DNA from: Gemmatirosa kalamazoonensis
GTDB lineage: Bacteria; Gemmatimonadota; Gemmatimonadetes; Gemmatimonadales; Gemmatimonadaceae
Direction: 5' to 3'
NCBI RefSeq assembly: GCF_000522985.1
Contig: NZ_CP007128.1
Location: 496,001-560,000, forward strand
DNA: 64,000 nucleotides
This document shows, in pieces, positions 14,752 to 45,582 of this stretch. A program made the translations under genes and the position numbers. Positions within the stretch are counted from its first letter, which is position 1, and every line of letters starts with the position of its first letter. A model generated the notes under the pieces. It was given only the letters and a program-made list of their open reading frames with translations. It had not been told where the DNA came from and ran no database searches.

Positions 14752-17700
14752 GTGCCTCAGCCGTCCTCCGACACACTCCGCCCCTCCTCGACCGACGCGC
14801 CCACCATGGGCGAGCCGGCGTCCGCGCGTACCTCCGGGCGGCCGGGGGAAGAGGCGGACCGGGCGACCGGTGGGGAGGCGCGCGACGCGGTGATGCGGCT
14901 CGACGCGACCGGTCGCGTGGTGTACGCGAACCTCGGCGCGGCGCAGCTGCTCGGCGCCGAGTCGCCGCTCGGCATCGTGGGGATGGAGCTCGCGGCGCTG
15001 CTGCGCCAGGGCGGCCAGGAGATCGCCGCGCTCGCGCTGCAGTCGGCGGCGGACGCGGTGCGCGGGCGCACGGTGCCCGACGCGTCGTTCACGGTGCACG
15101 ACACCCGCGGCGCGCCGCGCGCGCTGTGGCACGTGTCGCCGCACGGGACCGGCGTGTCGGTGATGGTGCGCCCGACCGGCGAGCCGCTGCGTGGCGCCGC
15201 GCCGTCGCCGAACGCCGCGCTCGACGCGCCGCCTAACGCGCTGTTCGTGCGTCCTCCGGCGCGGCCGGTCGAGCCGCCGCGTGCGGAGCCGGCGCGTGCG
15301 GAGCCTCCGCGTGTCGAGCCGTCGCGTGTCGAGCCGTCGCGCGTCGAGCCCGCGCGCGTCGAGCCCTCGAAGGCGACGCCGCCCATCGACGACGAGTGGG
15401 GCGACCTGTGGCCGAACGAGGCGCCTAACGCGACGACGGCGACGGACGAGACGGCGACGAACCCCGTTGCTGCGAGCGAGACGCCGCACGAGACGCCGAG
15501 CGAGACGCCGAGCGAGACGCCGAGCGAGACGCCGAGCGAGACGCCGAGCACGCCGGCGACGGCGGAGCGCGAGACGAGCGAGGCGCTCGTCGACCTGACG
15601 CGCGAGATCGCCGGTGCCGCCGATCAGGTGGACCGGGCGCTGGAGCAGCTCGCCGCCGCGGGCCGAGCGCTGCTGGGCGGCGACGGCGCGTGCATCGTGG
15701 TCCTCGACGGCGACGCGCGCATCGCGGCCGCGAACGGCACGCTCGGCGCACTCGCCGGACAGCGCACCGAGCTGCACGAGCCGCCGTCGCCGCTGCACGA
15801 GGCGATCGCCGCGCGGCAGGTCGTCGTGAGCCGGTTCGACGACCCGGCGGCGGGGAGCGCGCCGCGGCAGGTGCTCGTCGCGCCGCTCGCCGTCGGCGAG
15901 CAGGTGCTCGCCGCCCTGTGCGTCGTCACCGGCGGAGCCGAGGGCTTCACCGCGCACGACCGCGCGCTGGCCGAAAAGCTGGCCGAGCACGGAGCGCTCG
16001 CGGTGCGGAACAACCGGCTGTACCGCACGGTGGAGCGCGGCGCGCGCGCGACGCGCGGCTGCTCGCCGACGCGGCGCGCATCCTCGCGCGGCACGTCACG
16101 CCGCAGACGCTCTACCCCGCGCTCGCCGGCGTGGTGCGCGAGGCGTTAGGCGCGTGCGGCTTCACCGTCGTGCTCACCGATCCGGGGACGCGCACCGTCG
16201 AGCGGCTGTACAGCGAGGGCACCGGCGCCGCCGTCGCCGGCGCGGTGGATGCCGCGACGTTCTGGGAGACGGCCGGCGGCCGCGCCGTGCGCGACGGAGA
16301 GCCGAGCTTCGTCGACGGCACGCTTCCCGAGTCGCCGTCGACCGGCGACCGCCGCATCGCCGACCGGCTGCGCGGCACGCCGGCGCGTGCGCTCGCCATC
16401 CTGCCGCTCGTCGCCGACGAGACGCGCGGCGTGCTGTCGCTGCAGTTCGCCGAGCGCCACGCGTTCGACGAGCCGGAGCGTCGACTGCTCGCCGACTTCG
16501 CGGCGCACGTCGCGGTCGCGGTGCGCAACGCGACGCTGCTCGTGGCGCGCGAGCGGGAGCGCGACCGCGCGGCGGCGGCGGCCGAGATCGCGCGCGTCGC
16601 GCTCGACGCGTCGTCGCTCGACGCCGGCGCGGCGGCGATCCTCGGCGTGCTCGACCGCCTCGTGCCGTCGGCCGGCAAGGCGCTCAGCGTGCTGCGCGAC
16701 CAGGGCGCGGGCGCGGCCTACGTCGAGTGCGCGGCGGCGGTCGGCACGATCACGTTCCTGCGCGGGCTGCGCTCGGCGACGAGCGCGCGCGCCGCGCGGC
16801 GCGCCTCCGACGCGCGCGTGCGTCCGGTGATCGTCGACGACCTGCGCACGGTGCTCACCCCCGAGCGATGCCCCGACGCCACCGGGCAGCCGGGGACGGC
16901 GGCGGCAGCCGTGATGGTGCCGCTCGTCGCGCGCGGGCGCACGCTCGGCGATCTCGCCGTGACCACGCCGTTAGGCATCCCGCTCGCCGAGGCGGCGCGC
17001 GACACGCTCGCGCAGCTCGCCGCGCCGATCGCGCTCGCGCTCGACGCGCTGCTGCTCGGCGAGGAGCGGCGCCGCCGCCTCGTCGAGGAGCGGCAGATGA
17101 CCGAGCAGCTCCGGCAGGCGGAGAAGATGGCGGCGCTCGGCGAGCTGGTGGCCGGCGTGGCGCACGAGATCAACAACCCGCTCACCGGCATCTCCGCGTT
17201 CGCCGAGCTGCTGGCCGACGACGTGCTCACCGACGACCAGCGCGAGAGCGTGCGCCTCATCAAGCGCGAGGCCGACCGCGTGGTGGGGGTCGTGCGCGAC
17301 CTGCTCGTGTTCTCGCGCAAGACGGAGCCGGCGTACGCGGAGCTCGATCTGAACGAGCTCGTGGAGCGCACGCTGCGGCTGCGCAGCTACGCGCTGCGCG
17401 CCGCCGGCATCGACGTGCGTCTCGCGCTCGACCCGAGCCTGCCGGTGGTGTACGGCGACGAGGCGAAGCTGCAGCAGGTGATCCTGAACGTGGTGCTGAA
17501 CGCCGAGCATGCGATGCGCGAGACACCGCTGCGTCGGATCGAGGCCGCGACGCGCCACACCGGCGACCGCGTCGTGCTGTCGCTCACCGACACCGGCACC
17601 GGCATCGCGCCCGACGTGCTGCCGCGCATCTTCGAACCGTTCTTCACGACGAAGCCGGCGGGCGAGGGCACGGGGCTCGGCCTCAGCGTGAGCTACGGCA

Positions 17701-39311: not shown

Positions 39312-42311
39312 TCAGCGTCCCGCGCTCGCCCGTTCGAGCCGGGCGAGCGCGTCGCGCACGGACGCGAGGTGGACCGCGAACGACGGCTCCGCGTTCCGGC
39401 GCAGCGTCAGATAGTGCCGGTAGGCGCGGATCGCCTCCTCCCGCGCCCCCCCGCGCTCGGCCAGGCGGGCACGCTCGCGCAGATACGTGGAGAACGCGAA
39501 CGGGATGGACGTGTCGACGCGACGCCGTCCCGTCGCGGCGAGCGCGCGTGGCAGATCCCCTTCACGCTCCCACAGCGACGCCACGATCAGATTCCCCGCC
39601 CCCTCGAGCTCCCGACCGCCGGGCCCCTCGCGGAGCATGGAGTCGGCGGCGACGAGCAGCGCGTGCGCGTCGGAACGGCGCTCGAGGGCCGCGATCTGCG
39701 CGTCCAGCAGCAGCGCGAAGCGGCGCGCCGGTGCGTTGGACCACGGCGCGGCGGGCGACGCGGGCACCGAGCGCAGCGCGGCGATCGCCCGCCGGGTGCT
39801 CGCGGTGTCGCGTCGGGCCGCCGCATCCTCGCCGACGGCGAACGCGGTCAGCACGGCGTTCCGCGACGGCGCGGTGTCGAGCGGTGCGTCGAGCGTGCGG
39901 CGCGCACCGTCGCGCACCGAGCGCGCGAGCGTGCTGTCACCGTCCCAGAACAGCGCGGCGAGCAGCGCGAACGCGGTGTCGACGCCGCCCGGGCTCGCGC
40001 GCATCGCGGCCGCGGCGCGCGACGGCTGGCCGCGTGTCAGCGTGAACTCACGCGTCTGGCGCTCGGCGCGATCCCGGTCGGCCGTCGTCACCGCCGCGCG
40101 CCGGACCCGCGCGAGCAGGGGCTCCGCCGCCTCCGCACGCGTGCCACCGGCGTACGTCACCGCGAGGCCGAGGGCGGCTCCCGCCATCCACGCCGGCCCG
40201 CGTTCCAGCTCGGCGAGCGCGGCGCGCATCGTCGCCGAATCGCCCTGGATGAACCCCGTGAACAGCCGCGAGTCGGCCAGCGCCGGGTCGTGCAGCGCCG
40301 CGTCCACGGCCCGCCGCTCGCGCGCCGTGTCGCCGAGGAGGTGGTAGGTCGGCGCGTAATGATCGCGCACGCCGGCGTACGACGAGTCGAGCGCGAGCAC
40401 GCGGTCGAACGCGTTGAGCGCGCGGCGCAGCGCGTCGTCGATGCCCATGGCGGGACCGCAGTGCACGAGCGTCTCGCCCAGCAGATACCAGAGGTCCGGC
40501 ATGTCGGGCGCCTGGGCGACGCCCTGCTCGTGCTCGCGTAGCGACTCGGCGCACGTGCGCGGCCGCTCGAGCTCCGCGGTCGATCCGAGCAGCAGGCGGT
40601 CGCGCGGACCGAGTCGGTCGGCGTAGCGCGCGACGAGGCGGTGCGCGTCCGCGGCGCGCGCGCTCGGCGTCCAGTTCGTCGACGTGAGCCACAAGCGCAG
40701 CGCGGCGAGCGCGAACGTCGAGTCGGCGTCCATCGCGCGCGCGTACGCGGCGGTCGCGTCGTTGTAGCGTCCCGCGCGCTCGAGCGAGCGTCCCTCCAGG
40801 TAGTGCTGCAGCGCGGCGAGCGGCACGCCGGCGAGCGCGGTCGCGCGCTCGTCGTTCTCGCCCGCGTCGAGCGCGAGCAGCTTGCCGACCACCGAGTCGA
40901 GCAGCGCGGGCAGCGCGGTCGCGGCGCCGCGCGCGGACGCGTGCCGCTCGCGCCCGTCGTGGGCCGAGAGCAGCGTCCCGTCGAGCGACAGGCTACCCGG
41001 CGCGACGATCGCGCTCCCCTCGATGACGGCGCCCGCGCCGACGCGGCGGGCGAGCAGCATGGCCGCGTCGCGCGGCAGGTCGAGGCGCTCGCCACCGGCC
41101 GCGCGCCACGCGGCGAGCACCGTGCGGACGTCCACCGCATGCACCCGCCCCGTGAGCAGCGCCGCCACGAGGTCGGGGATCCCCTCGCGCAGCAGCCGCA
41201 GCGACGCGTCGCCGCCGACGACGCGGAACGGGAGCACCGCGACGGCGTCGCGATCGACGAGCACCGGCGGGTCGCGCAGCCGCGACGCGATCCACGCGCC
41301 CCCGCCGACGAGCACCGCGGCCGACGCGAGCGCCGCGATGCCTAACGTGCGTCGCGTCGTGCGACGCGCGTCGGGCTCCGGCGGACGCGTCGCGTGCGGC
41401 GTCACCGACGTGTCGGCGGGCGTGGCCCGCACGTCGAGCGCATCGAGCGCGCGGACGATCTCGTCCGCGGTCGGCGGCCGGTCGGCGGGATTCTTCGCGA
41501 GGCAGCGCATCACGAGCGCGGCGAGCGCCGGCGGCACGTCGGGCCGTCGATGCTCGATCGGCTCGGGCGGCTCGGCGACGTGCGCGGCGATCAGCGCCTG
41601 CGCGCCGCGGCCGGCGAACGGCGGGGTGCCGGCGAGCATCTCGTAGGCGAGGACGCCGAGCGCGTAGAGGTCCACGCGGTGGTCCGCGAGCGGGTCGGCC
41701 GTCGCCTGCTCGGGCGCCATGTACGACGGGGTGCCTAACGCGAGCCCCGCCGAGGTGAGCGCGCTCGCGTCCGTCGCCGCCGCGCGCAGCGCCTTGGCGA
41801 CGCCGAAGTCGACGACCACCGCGTCGTGCTCCGTGAGCAGCACGTTCTCCGGCTTGATGTCGCGGTGGACGACGCCCTCGCGGTGCGCGTACGCGAGTGC
41901 CGATGCCACGTCGCGCGCGACGGACACCGACTCGGCGATCGGCAGCGCGCCGACGCGCGTCAGCCGCGCGCGCACCGACTCGCCGCGCACGAACGGCATC
42001 GTGTAGTAGAGGAGCGGCGCCCACGCCGGCCGGTCGTCGCCGCTCGACTCGCCGGCGGCGAGCAGCGGCACGATGTGGGCGTGCTGGAGCCGCGCGGCGA
42101 TCGCGATCTCGCGCCGGAACCGCTCGACGCTGATCGCGCCGGTCAGCTCGGGCGGCAGCACCTTCACGACGACCTCACGACCGAGCGCGACCTCGGTGGC
42201 GACGAACACGCGCGACATGCCGCCGCCGTCGAGCTCCCGCTCGACGCGATAGGCGGCGCCGAACGCCGCCTGCAGCTCGTCGCGGACGCCCGCTCTCACG
42301 CCGCGGGCCAC
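39312..42311 (-). CDS. Membrane Ser/Thr protein kinase with TPR-type sensor region (kinase A)
   Basis: 999 residues from GTG 42311 (42299 is an alternative), 2 nt after the upstream stop. Kinase domain about 18-285: Gly loop GGGMSRVF, ATP lysine in VVVKVLPPEL, catalytic VVHRDIKPENVLL, DFG as VDFGVAKAL, APE as APEQAT. TM about 322-345 (IAALASAAVLVGGGAWIASRL). The extracytoplasmic part starts with a TolB/FlgO-like module (DAVAVLPFRVVGGDASLRLL), then TPR-like helices rich in Ala/Arg (YLEGRSLERAGRYNDATAAY, GPRDRLLLGS). Hanks-type kinase with a predicted periplasmic sensor. Organised as the second gene of a two-kinase operon with 42314-45582. Confidence 0.88.
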   Translation of the reverse strand: MARGVRAGVRDELQAAFGAAYRVERELDGGGMSRVFVATEVALGREVVVKVLPPELTGAISVERFRREIAIAARLQHAHIVPLLAAGESSGDDRPAWAPLLYYTMPFVRGESVRARLTRVGALPIAESVSVARDVASALAYAHREGVVHRDIKPENVLLTEHDAVVVDFGVAKALRAAATDASALTSAGLALGTPSYMAPEQATADPLADHRVDLYALGVLAYEMLAGTPPFAGRGAQALIAAHVAEPPEPIEHRRPDVPPALAALVMRCLAKNPADRPPTADEIVRALDALDVRATPADTSVTPHATRPPEPDARRTTRRTLGIAALASAAVLVGGGAWIASRLRDPPVLVDRDAVAVLPFRVVGGDASLRLLREGIPDLVAALLTGRVHAVDVRTVLAAWRAAGGERLDLPRDAAMLLARRVGAGAVIEGSAIVAPGSLSLDGTLLSAHDGRERHASARGAATALPALLDSVVGKLLALDAGENDERATALAGVPLAALQHYLEGRSLERAGRYNDATAAYARAMDADSTFALAALRLWLTSTNWTPSARAADAHRLVARYADRLGPRDRLLLGSTAELERPRTCAESLREHEQGVAQAPDMPDLWYLLGETLVHCGPAMGIDDALRRALNAFDRVLALDSSYAGVRDHYAPTYHLLGDTARERRAVDAALHDPALADSRLFTGFIQGDSATMRAALAELERGPAWMAGAALGLAVTYAGGTRAEAAEPLLARVRRAAVTTADRDRAERQTREFTLTRGQPSRAAAAMRASPGGVDTAFALLAALFWDGDSTLARSVRDGARRTLDAPLDTAPSRNAVLTAFAVGEDAAARRDTASTRRAIAALRSVPASPAAPWSNAPARRFALLLDAQIAALERRSDAHALLVAADSMLREGPGGRELEGAGNLIVASLWEREGDLPRALAATGRRRVDTSIPFAFSTYLRERARLAERGGAREEAIRAYRHYLTLRRNAEPSFAVHLASVRDALARLERASAGR

Positions 42312-42313
42312 GC

Positions 42314-45300
42314 CTAACGGACCGGCGTCGCCGGGCCGACATCGCGCACGCGCGCGAGCCCCGCCTGCGCTTCGCGGAGCTGCGGCTGCAGGGCGGGGTC
42401 GGCGTCCTTCCAGAGCGCGGCGAACCGCTGGTACGCCGCGGCTGCCTCCGCGCGCTGGCCGAGCTGCTCGTACAGCCGCGCGCGGGCGAGCAGGCTGCGC
42501 GCCCACAGCACCGGCGACGGATCGAAGATCTGCACGTCGGGGAAGCGCTTCGGGTCGATCACCTCGTACATCGCGACGGCGCGCCGCGTGTCGCCCAACG
42601 CCGTGAGGACCTCGGCGCGCACCACCCACCGCGGCGCGTTGATCCCGAAGGAGGCAGCGCGCGCGGAGTCGGGCGACGGAAAGCGCTGGGCGGCAACGCG
42701 GGCGCGCGCCGTGTCGCCGGCGAGCAGCGCGTCGAACGCGTCGACCTCCGGCCAGGCGGTGGTGTCGGCACCGCGCCACCGGCGCATCATGTCCACGTAC
42801 TTGCGGTCGCGGAACGCCGCCATCGCGACGTAGGGCACCATCAACGACTGACGCCGCGCGCCGTCGCCGAAGCGGCCGGGGATGCGGTCGAGCCCCGCGA
42901 GACCGCCGTCGATCGTGCCGCGCAGCGCGGGCGTGCTCACGCCCGCCGCGACACGCGTGGCCGCGCCGTACCACTGCACGAGCAGCGACGTCGGCGTGCC
43001 GGCGCCGGGAATCGTCGGCTGCACCGCGGCGGCGAGCCGTCCGGCGCGGTCGGCGTCCGACAGCCGGCCGCCGAGCGCCGCCACCTGCATCGTCGCCATC
43101 AGCATCGCGAACCGATCGGATCCCCCGACGCGCGTGAGCGCCGCCGAGTCGCTCGTGGCGAGCGCGTCGTGCACGCTGGCGACCGCGCGCGACGCGTCGG
43201 TGCGCACGAGCACGACCGACCGCACGAACGGCAGCAGCCCCGCATCGGGACCGAGACGGCGCACCGCGTCGTCGAGCACCGCGGCGGCGGAGTCCCAGTA
43301 CGCGGGGATGTACGCCTGCGCGACGGCCATGTACGCCGGTGGCACCGGATCGGCGGCCGCCCACGCGCGCGCGTCGCGCACGGCGAGCTGGCGTGCACGC
43401 TCCTTCGCCGCCGTCAGCCGCGGGCCCTGGAACGCCTGCCGCGTCGCGGCATCGCCCAACGACCGCAGCGTCTCGCCGTCGAGCACGAGCGCCGCGTTCG
43501 GCCCCGCGGCCTGCTGGTAGATCTGGACCTTGTGCGAGTACGCGAGGTGGAACGTGGAGTCGAGCGCGAGCGTGCGATTGAACGCGGCGAGCGACTTCGT
43601 CCAGTGGTCGCGGGTCGTCGAGTCGGGCCCGCCGCCGGTGGTGTGATGGAAGTACGCGTCGCCGAGCCCGTACCACGCCTCGGCGTCGCCGGAGTCGCGC
43701 GCCACCGCGGCGGCGTACTTGCGCTGTGCGTCGACGAAGCGCGCATCGCGCACCGAGTCGGTCGCCTCCGATCCGTACATCGCGGTGGAGAACGCGGCGT
43801 ACGCGTCGAGCAGGGCGCGCTCGCGCGCCGGCAGCCGCCCCGCGTTGCGCACGGCGCGCTCGACGAGCTCGGACTGCAGCGGGTCGCCGGCCTTCCACCA
43901 GCCGTAGGTGAGCGCGCGCTTGTAGTACGCGAGCGCGAACGTGGAGTCGGCCGCCGTCGCGGCGGCGAACAGCGAGTCGGCGCGCGGGAGCTGCCACGCG
44001 TTCAGCGCGCGCGCGCGCCATCCAGGTAGTCGCGGTACGCGGCGACGGAGGTGGTGGTGCTCTTCGTGATGCCTAACGACACCGCGGGCGCGCCGACGAG
44101 GTCGAGCAGGTCGCGCGCGAGCGCGTCGAACAGCGGCCGCGGATCGGCGCCGCGCGGGGTGGCGCGCATCGCCGAATCCACCTTCTTGCCGGAGGCGACG
44201 TCGTAGACGTTCGCGACGACGAGCGTGGAGTCGCCGATGCCGGTGACGCGGCCCGTGACGACGGTCCACACGCCCGCCTTGCGGGCGAGGCGGCGCGCGT
44301 CGTCGAGGCCGATGCGGCGCGCGCCGTCGAGCTTGAGGTCGCGCTGCAGATCGAGCCCGCGCTCGTAGTCGACGACCTGCAGGTCGCGCCACTGCGCGAG
44401 GTCGAGCGACAGCATGCTCACCGCGCCCTCGCGCAGCCACGCGAGCTGCGGGTCGGGGCTCAGCACGTCGAACGGCGCGACGAGATACGACCGGCGGGGG
44501 TCGACGCCGCGCGGGACGCCGCCGCTCGTGCCTAAGGCCGCCCACGCCGCGGCGGCCGCCGCCGCCAGCGCGAGGATCGCCACCCCGACGAGCATCGGGC
44601 GGCGGGTCGGGACTCGGGATTCGGGACTCGGGACTCGTGGGGGAGCAGTTCCCGAGTCCCGAGTCCCGAGTCCCGAGTCCCGCACTCCGGTGTCCAGCGC
44701 GTCGGCCATGTCGTTCGCGGTGGCCCAGCGCGCCTCGGGCCTCTTCTCGAGCGCGCGATCGATCACGCCGGCGACGGCGGGGGGCACGTGGTCGTTGCGC
44801 GTCACGAGCGGCGCCGGGCGCTCGGTGATCTGGCGCATGATGATGCTCGCCGCGCTCCCGCCGGCGACCGCGGGCTCGCCGGCGAACATCTCGTAGCCGA
44901 CGAGGCCGAGCGAGTACACGTCGCTCCGCCCGTCGAGCTCGCGCTCGCCGGCCGCCTGCTCGGGGCTCATGTAGCGCGGGCTGCCGACGACGAAGCCGGT
45001 GCCGGTCATCCGCTCGTCCTCGGCGGAGAACGCGCGCGCGACCCCGAAATCGGTGAGCATCGCGCGTCCGGTCTCGGCGTCGAGCAGCACGTTCTCGGGC
45101 TTCACGTCGCGGTGCACGATCCCCTGCGCGTGGGCGTAGCCGAGGGCGCGGGCGAGGTCGCGCAGCGCGGTCACCGCGCTCGCGTCGTCGTACCGGCCGC
45201 GGGCGAGGCGGTCGCGGAGGCTCTCCCCGGGGACGAACTCCATCACGAAGTACAGCAGCCCCTCCGTCTCGCCCGCCGCGTGCACGGCCACGATGTTCGG

Positions 45301-45582
45301 GTGCCGCAGCCGCGCCACCGTGCGCGCCTCGCGCAGGAACCGCTCGCGGAGCGCGGTCGACGCGGCGAGATCCGAGGAGATGACCTTGATGGCGACCCGC
45401 CGGTCGAGCGTCACGTCGCGCCCGAGGTAGACGCTCCCCATCCCTCCCTGCCCGAGCAGCCGCTCCACCTCGTAGCTCCCGGCGAGCGCGCGACGGAGCG
45501 CCTCGAGGGCGTGCAGCTCCGGATCGAGCGGGGCGGGGGTGCCGTGCGGGGGAGACGACTGGCCGGAGGGGGGGCTGCTCAT
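42314..45582 (-). CDS. Membrane Ser/Thr protein kinase with TPR region (kinase B), frameshifted at a GC run
   Basis: About 1089 residues if the frame is repaired. Start MSSPPSGQSSP at 45582 (CACATT box 6 nt upstream). Kinase domain about 36-300 (GQGGMGSV, VAIKVISSDL, IVHRDVKPENVLL, TDFGVARAF, SPEQAAGE). Then a linker encoded by an inserted palindrome, a TM (LVGVAILALAAAAAAAWAAL) and a TolB/FlgO-like module. In one frame it stops at 44002 (DYLDGARAR then TGA). The adjacent frame continues RALNAWQLPRADSLFAAAT and a ~560-residue TPR region to 42314. The junction is the (GC)7 tract at 44005-44018. Total length 3n+2, so one GC unit too many, exactly as in the histidine kinase at 14752. Without repair a kinase lacking its TPR half would be made. 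Confidence 0.85.
44603..44682. repeat. Palindrome in frame within kinase B (GGACTCGG family, copy 2)
   Basis: Left arm GTCGGGACTCGGGATTCGGG... (44603-44637), 15-nt loop, right arm of four GAGTCCC units (44653-44682). Translated as a linker containing RDSGLGTRDSG and PSPESRVP between the kinase domain and the TM helix. Confidence 0.85.

Follow-up and report, generated by a model that had tools for sequence, protein, structure and literature searches.

Simple repeats within coding regions are well described as switches of gene expression. In the phase-variable methyltransferase gene of Mycoplasma mycoides, which carries an (AG)n repeat (PMC3498834), and in the tetranucleotide-repeat phase variation of Haemophilus influenzae (PMC2651432), the length of the repeat sets the reading frame, as it does in the gene described here. 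A second known case is that of genomes assembled from PacBio reads only and polished with early versions of Quiver, which also rest on a single technology and carry small indels in simple repeats, with apparent frameshifts in genes of all kinds. The genome of Gemmatirosa kalamazoonensis KBS708 (72.6% G+C) was determined with PacBio RS reads as the only data, using HGAP for assembly and Quiver for polishing (PMC3974934). The assembly comprises 7.48 Mb in four contigs, among them contigs of 5,311,527, 1,106,233 and 20,952 bases. Here we analyse a gene broken at a GC repeat in a window of 64,000 nucleotides of this genome, and compare it with other GC runs of the assembly and of related genomes.

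Results

A kinase-TPR gene is broken at a (GC)7 run

The first-pass annotation had proposed that a (GC)7 tract breaks a kinase gene. We could confirm a perfect (GC)7 run of 14 bp at 44005..44018 and found that the frame of the minus strand changes exactly there. The 5' part of the gene (44002..45582, minus strand) starts with an ATG at 45582 and ends with a TGA at 44004-44002, immediately past the GC run. This open reading frame encodes a Hanks-type Ser/Thr protein kinase domain (PF00069, E-value 2.2e-50), probably followed, as judged from a hydrophobic stretch, by one transmembrane segment and the start of an extracytoplasmic part. The 3' part of the same gene (42314..44004, minus strand) runs on from the GC run in a different frame until it reaches a stop at 42314, and was recognized as a TPR region from its translation, its relatives and weak TPR matches. 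A Viterbi scan of codon usage, blind to the earlier finding, placed the frame change at 44006/44007 and preferred a frameshift to two adjacent genes by 23 nats. Both halves of the gene display a full coding signal and have kept their conservation.

The run itself is not improbable for the composition of the window, in which 1.5 alternating GC runs of at least 14 bp are expected and one is seen. Genome-wide, (GC)7 gives 59 hits and the control (CG)7 gives 77. The companion break that had been reported in a histidine-kinase gene is also real: the frame scan detected a frame change in the same direction at an 11-bp GC run (16040..16050, plus strand).

Relatives encode the kinase-TPR fusion in a single frame

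By searching the TPR part against 148 genomes of the family, we found a match in 26 of them, the genome of the window included. All 25 related copies span the junction in a single frame and without any gap, most of them within an open frame of ~1,060 amino acids and with a junction motif resembling AYRAYLDGxRALNxWQL. One continuous frame through the kinase and the TPR region, lacking in the published assembly, is thus what relatives have. Since they align gap-free across the junction only with a shorter run, the (GC)7 has two bases more than the frame requires, which bears out the earlier suggestion of one GC unit too many. Furthermore, long GC runs are lacking at the junction in all 25 related copies, so that a conserved repeat switch is excluded. 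With its kinase domain, probable membrane segment and TPR region, the gene is an ordinary member of the kinase-TPR fusion proteins of Gemmatimonadota, from which it differs only by its broken assembled frame.

Frame breaks increase with the length of alternating GC runs

Frame changes were called throughout 2.4 Mb of the genome (1.76 Mb continuous and unselected, plus 0.64 Mb picked for long runs) with a codon-usage model trained on the long open reading frames of the same 2.4 Mb. At short alternating GC runs, the broken fraction was 0.7% (7 bp), 0.8% (8 bp), 1.0% (9 bp) and 0.7% (10 bp), with a background of 1.1% at random sites. The fraction was 6.5% at 11 bp and 19% at 12 bp, and longer runs were broken in 12/19 (13 bp), 5/11 (14 bp), 4/8 (15 bp), 3/5 (16 bp), 0/1 (17 bp) and 1/1 (18 bp) cases. 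Altogether, 25 of the 45 runs of at least 13 bp were broken, one doubtful site being counted in. In the unselected 1.76 Mb, alternating GC runs of at least 11 bp make up 0.2% of the sequence and harbour 10 of the 15 strong frame breaks. A few strong breaks were also seen away from long GC runs (C2:920355, C2:1160385, C2:1373350 and C2:603821), some of them at homopolymers of G5-G6, and may reflect either true pseudogenes or errors of another sort.

The direction of the shift was nearly constant, with one GC unit too many in 35 of 36 accepted broken runs, the exception being the 18-bp run. As frame calls, these depend on codon usage, and gene boundaries may account for a few of the 36. Three sites (C2:1112028, C3:949718 and C3:46715) had been left out of the 36 as gene boundaries or because they were too short. 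Background frame changes were skewed 42 to 8 towards the same shift, probably owing to short gene overlaps. However, this background of ~1% is much lower than the rate seen at long runs and is too rare to account for the pattern.

Long GC runs keep the frame in related genomes

As controls we used 3-kb loci, obtained by pattern searches, from three members of the family, two at 75% G+C and one at 65%. In these genomes, none of the 45 assessable runs of 13-14 bp was broken, compared to 25/45 runs of at least 13 bp in KBS708 (Fisher's test, p about 5e-10). Within the KBS708 assembly, only 2 of 135 G/C homopolymers of at least 6 bp coincided with a frame break, and both mutS and mutL are intact. 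A hypermutator strain was rejected as an explanation, given that the mismatch repair genes are intact and that G/C homopolymers keep the frame.

Genes of every kind are broken

The broken genes belong to every functional kind and are not chiefly sensory, even if kinases are among them. The best match to hisC in the genome loses its frame at a GC run of 14 bp (C2:1440244), and no hisC match above the family cut-off was found anywhere in the genome. Other biosynthetic, transport or catabolic functions are hit as well, such as a D-xylonate/dihydroxy-acid dehydratase, LolD-like and CcmA-like ABC ATPases and a family 95 glycosidase, together with a methyltransferase, a glyoxalase-family protein, MacB-like permeases and a FadL-like outer membrane protein. 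For many of these genes, the two halves match consecutive parts of one profile, for example residues 1-51 then 58-136 of ABC_tran, 1-144 then 157-258 of Pkinase, and 141-398 then 408-639 of YjhG/YagF.

Iterated motifs

With both strands counted, the 7-mer GCCTAAC, which resembles highly iterated motifs such as HIP1, has 1,356 occurrences in C2:1-1,760,000 (window included), about 9 times the 154 expected from base composition; examples in the window lie at 41340, 41733 and 44071. GCCTAAC accounts for 98% of all CCTAAC, and the following base is G in 87% of cases. Within genes the motif is mostly antisense, that is read as TTA-GGC, despite the rarity expected of TTA at such a G+C content. No copy is present in 130 kb of the relative G015. 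In addition, clusters of CGGGACTCGGGACTCG and its complement are found chromosome-wide, with about 100 positions in the 1.76 Mb. Some lie in-frame within genes, and clusters are present in the kinase linker in the window (about 44607-44683) and at two sites (C2:1031797 and C2:1031836) within the mutS match.

Discussion

Two explanations had been offered by the first-pass annotation for the breaks in both kinases: either GC runs are systematically mis-assembled, or sensory genes undergo phase variation at them. The first-pass annotation had itself named the same shift in housekeeping genes as the mark of a technical artefact, and such genes were indeed found broken at GC runs. As the same fault affects all kinds of genes and none in relatives, it argues for an error rather than an on/off switch. 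The best reading of the whole pattern is that the consensus goes wrong systematically at GC dinucleotide runs, and on these genome-wide grounds we consider, with a probability of about 0.93, that the kinase gene is broken in the published assembly by a consensus error. What was found agrees with the expectations for such an error: the genome was built from error-prone long reads only and was not polished with short reads, the rate of breaks rises with run length, the function of the gene is ignored, and the fault is absent in relatives.

We infer that consensus calling was the source of the error. The draft consensus would carry one extra GC unit at long alternating GC runs, and a polisher trying single-base edits could be stuck where a two-base unit must go; with a consensus one GC unit too long, genes crossing such runs would look frameshifted. 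Dinucleotide repeats are a known trap for a polisher. On the other hand, PacBio errors are commonly regarded as homopolymer indels, which counts against a consensus error, and our literature search found no description of exactly such an error at GC runs. Compared to the residual indels typical of early Quiver assemblies, those described here are found at alternating GC runs of at least 11 bp instead of homopolymers, and the run is nearly always one unit too long. The option refineDinucleotideRepeats was invoked by later users with Quiver (PMC6071602) and with Arrow (PMC7756384). Its existence means that the makers of the tool provided for dinucleotide repeats, and it points to a weakness of Quiver at two-base repeats.

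Phase variation, in which replication slippage at the GC run would switch the sensory kinase and the assembly would have caught its OFF state, could explain why the run sits in a sensory kinase and why a second sensory gene is broken, and the slippage rate would likewise climb with run length. We nevertheless consider it very unlikely. Slippage runs both ways, whereas the breaks go almost exclusively in one direction, and a slippage-prone strain should also show unstable homopolymers, which are stable here in a genome with intact mutS and mutL. Moreover, unlike in the Mycoplasma and Haemophilus genes, the tract is not conserved in orthologues and the breaks, that of hisC among them, are not concentrated in surface or regulatory genes; none of the equally long runs assessed in related genomes was broken. 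There is similarly little chance that KBS708 truly holds dozens of one-unit expansions of its long GC runs, in genes of every kind, through a GC-specific peculiarity of replication or repair, and tolerates them by reversible slippage or recoding.

A true and fixed frameshift that made the kinase gene a pseudogene in KBS708 would fit the broken frame of the published sequence, and the few other breaks distant from GC runs may be real. Yet full coding signal and conservation persist on either side of the break, and with the genome-wide pattern an isolated mutation in the kinase becomes an unneeded coincidence, making this reading highly improbable. Finally, two frames that abut at a repetitive run could suggest programmed frameshifting, by which the GC run would fuse both frames into one product. 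This is exceedingly improbable: the usual slippery site has the form X_XXY_YYZ, which an alternating GC run does not have, relatives encode the fusion in a single frame so that the two-frame layout is not conserved, and dozens of unrelated GC runs carry the same shift.

A consensus error at GC runs would have consequences beyond this locus. The unselected 1.76 Mb contains about 11 broken runs per Mb; by extrapolation, some 80 genes may have been split, or labelled as pseudogenes, in error in the deposited genome. Other assemblies of the same era based on long reads only, for G+C-rich bacteria, may need re-checking. KBS708 provides an early complete reference genome for a poorly cultivated phylum, and claims of missing functions (histidine synthesis, for example) or of phase variation drawn from its assembly need to be re-checked. 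As for the kinase, its fusion with the TPR region is most likely encoded by an intact gene in the living cell, as it is in relatives.
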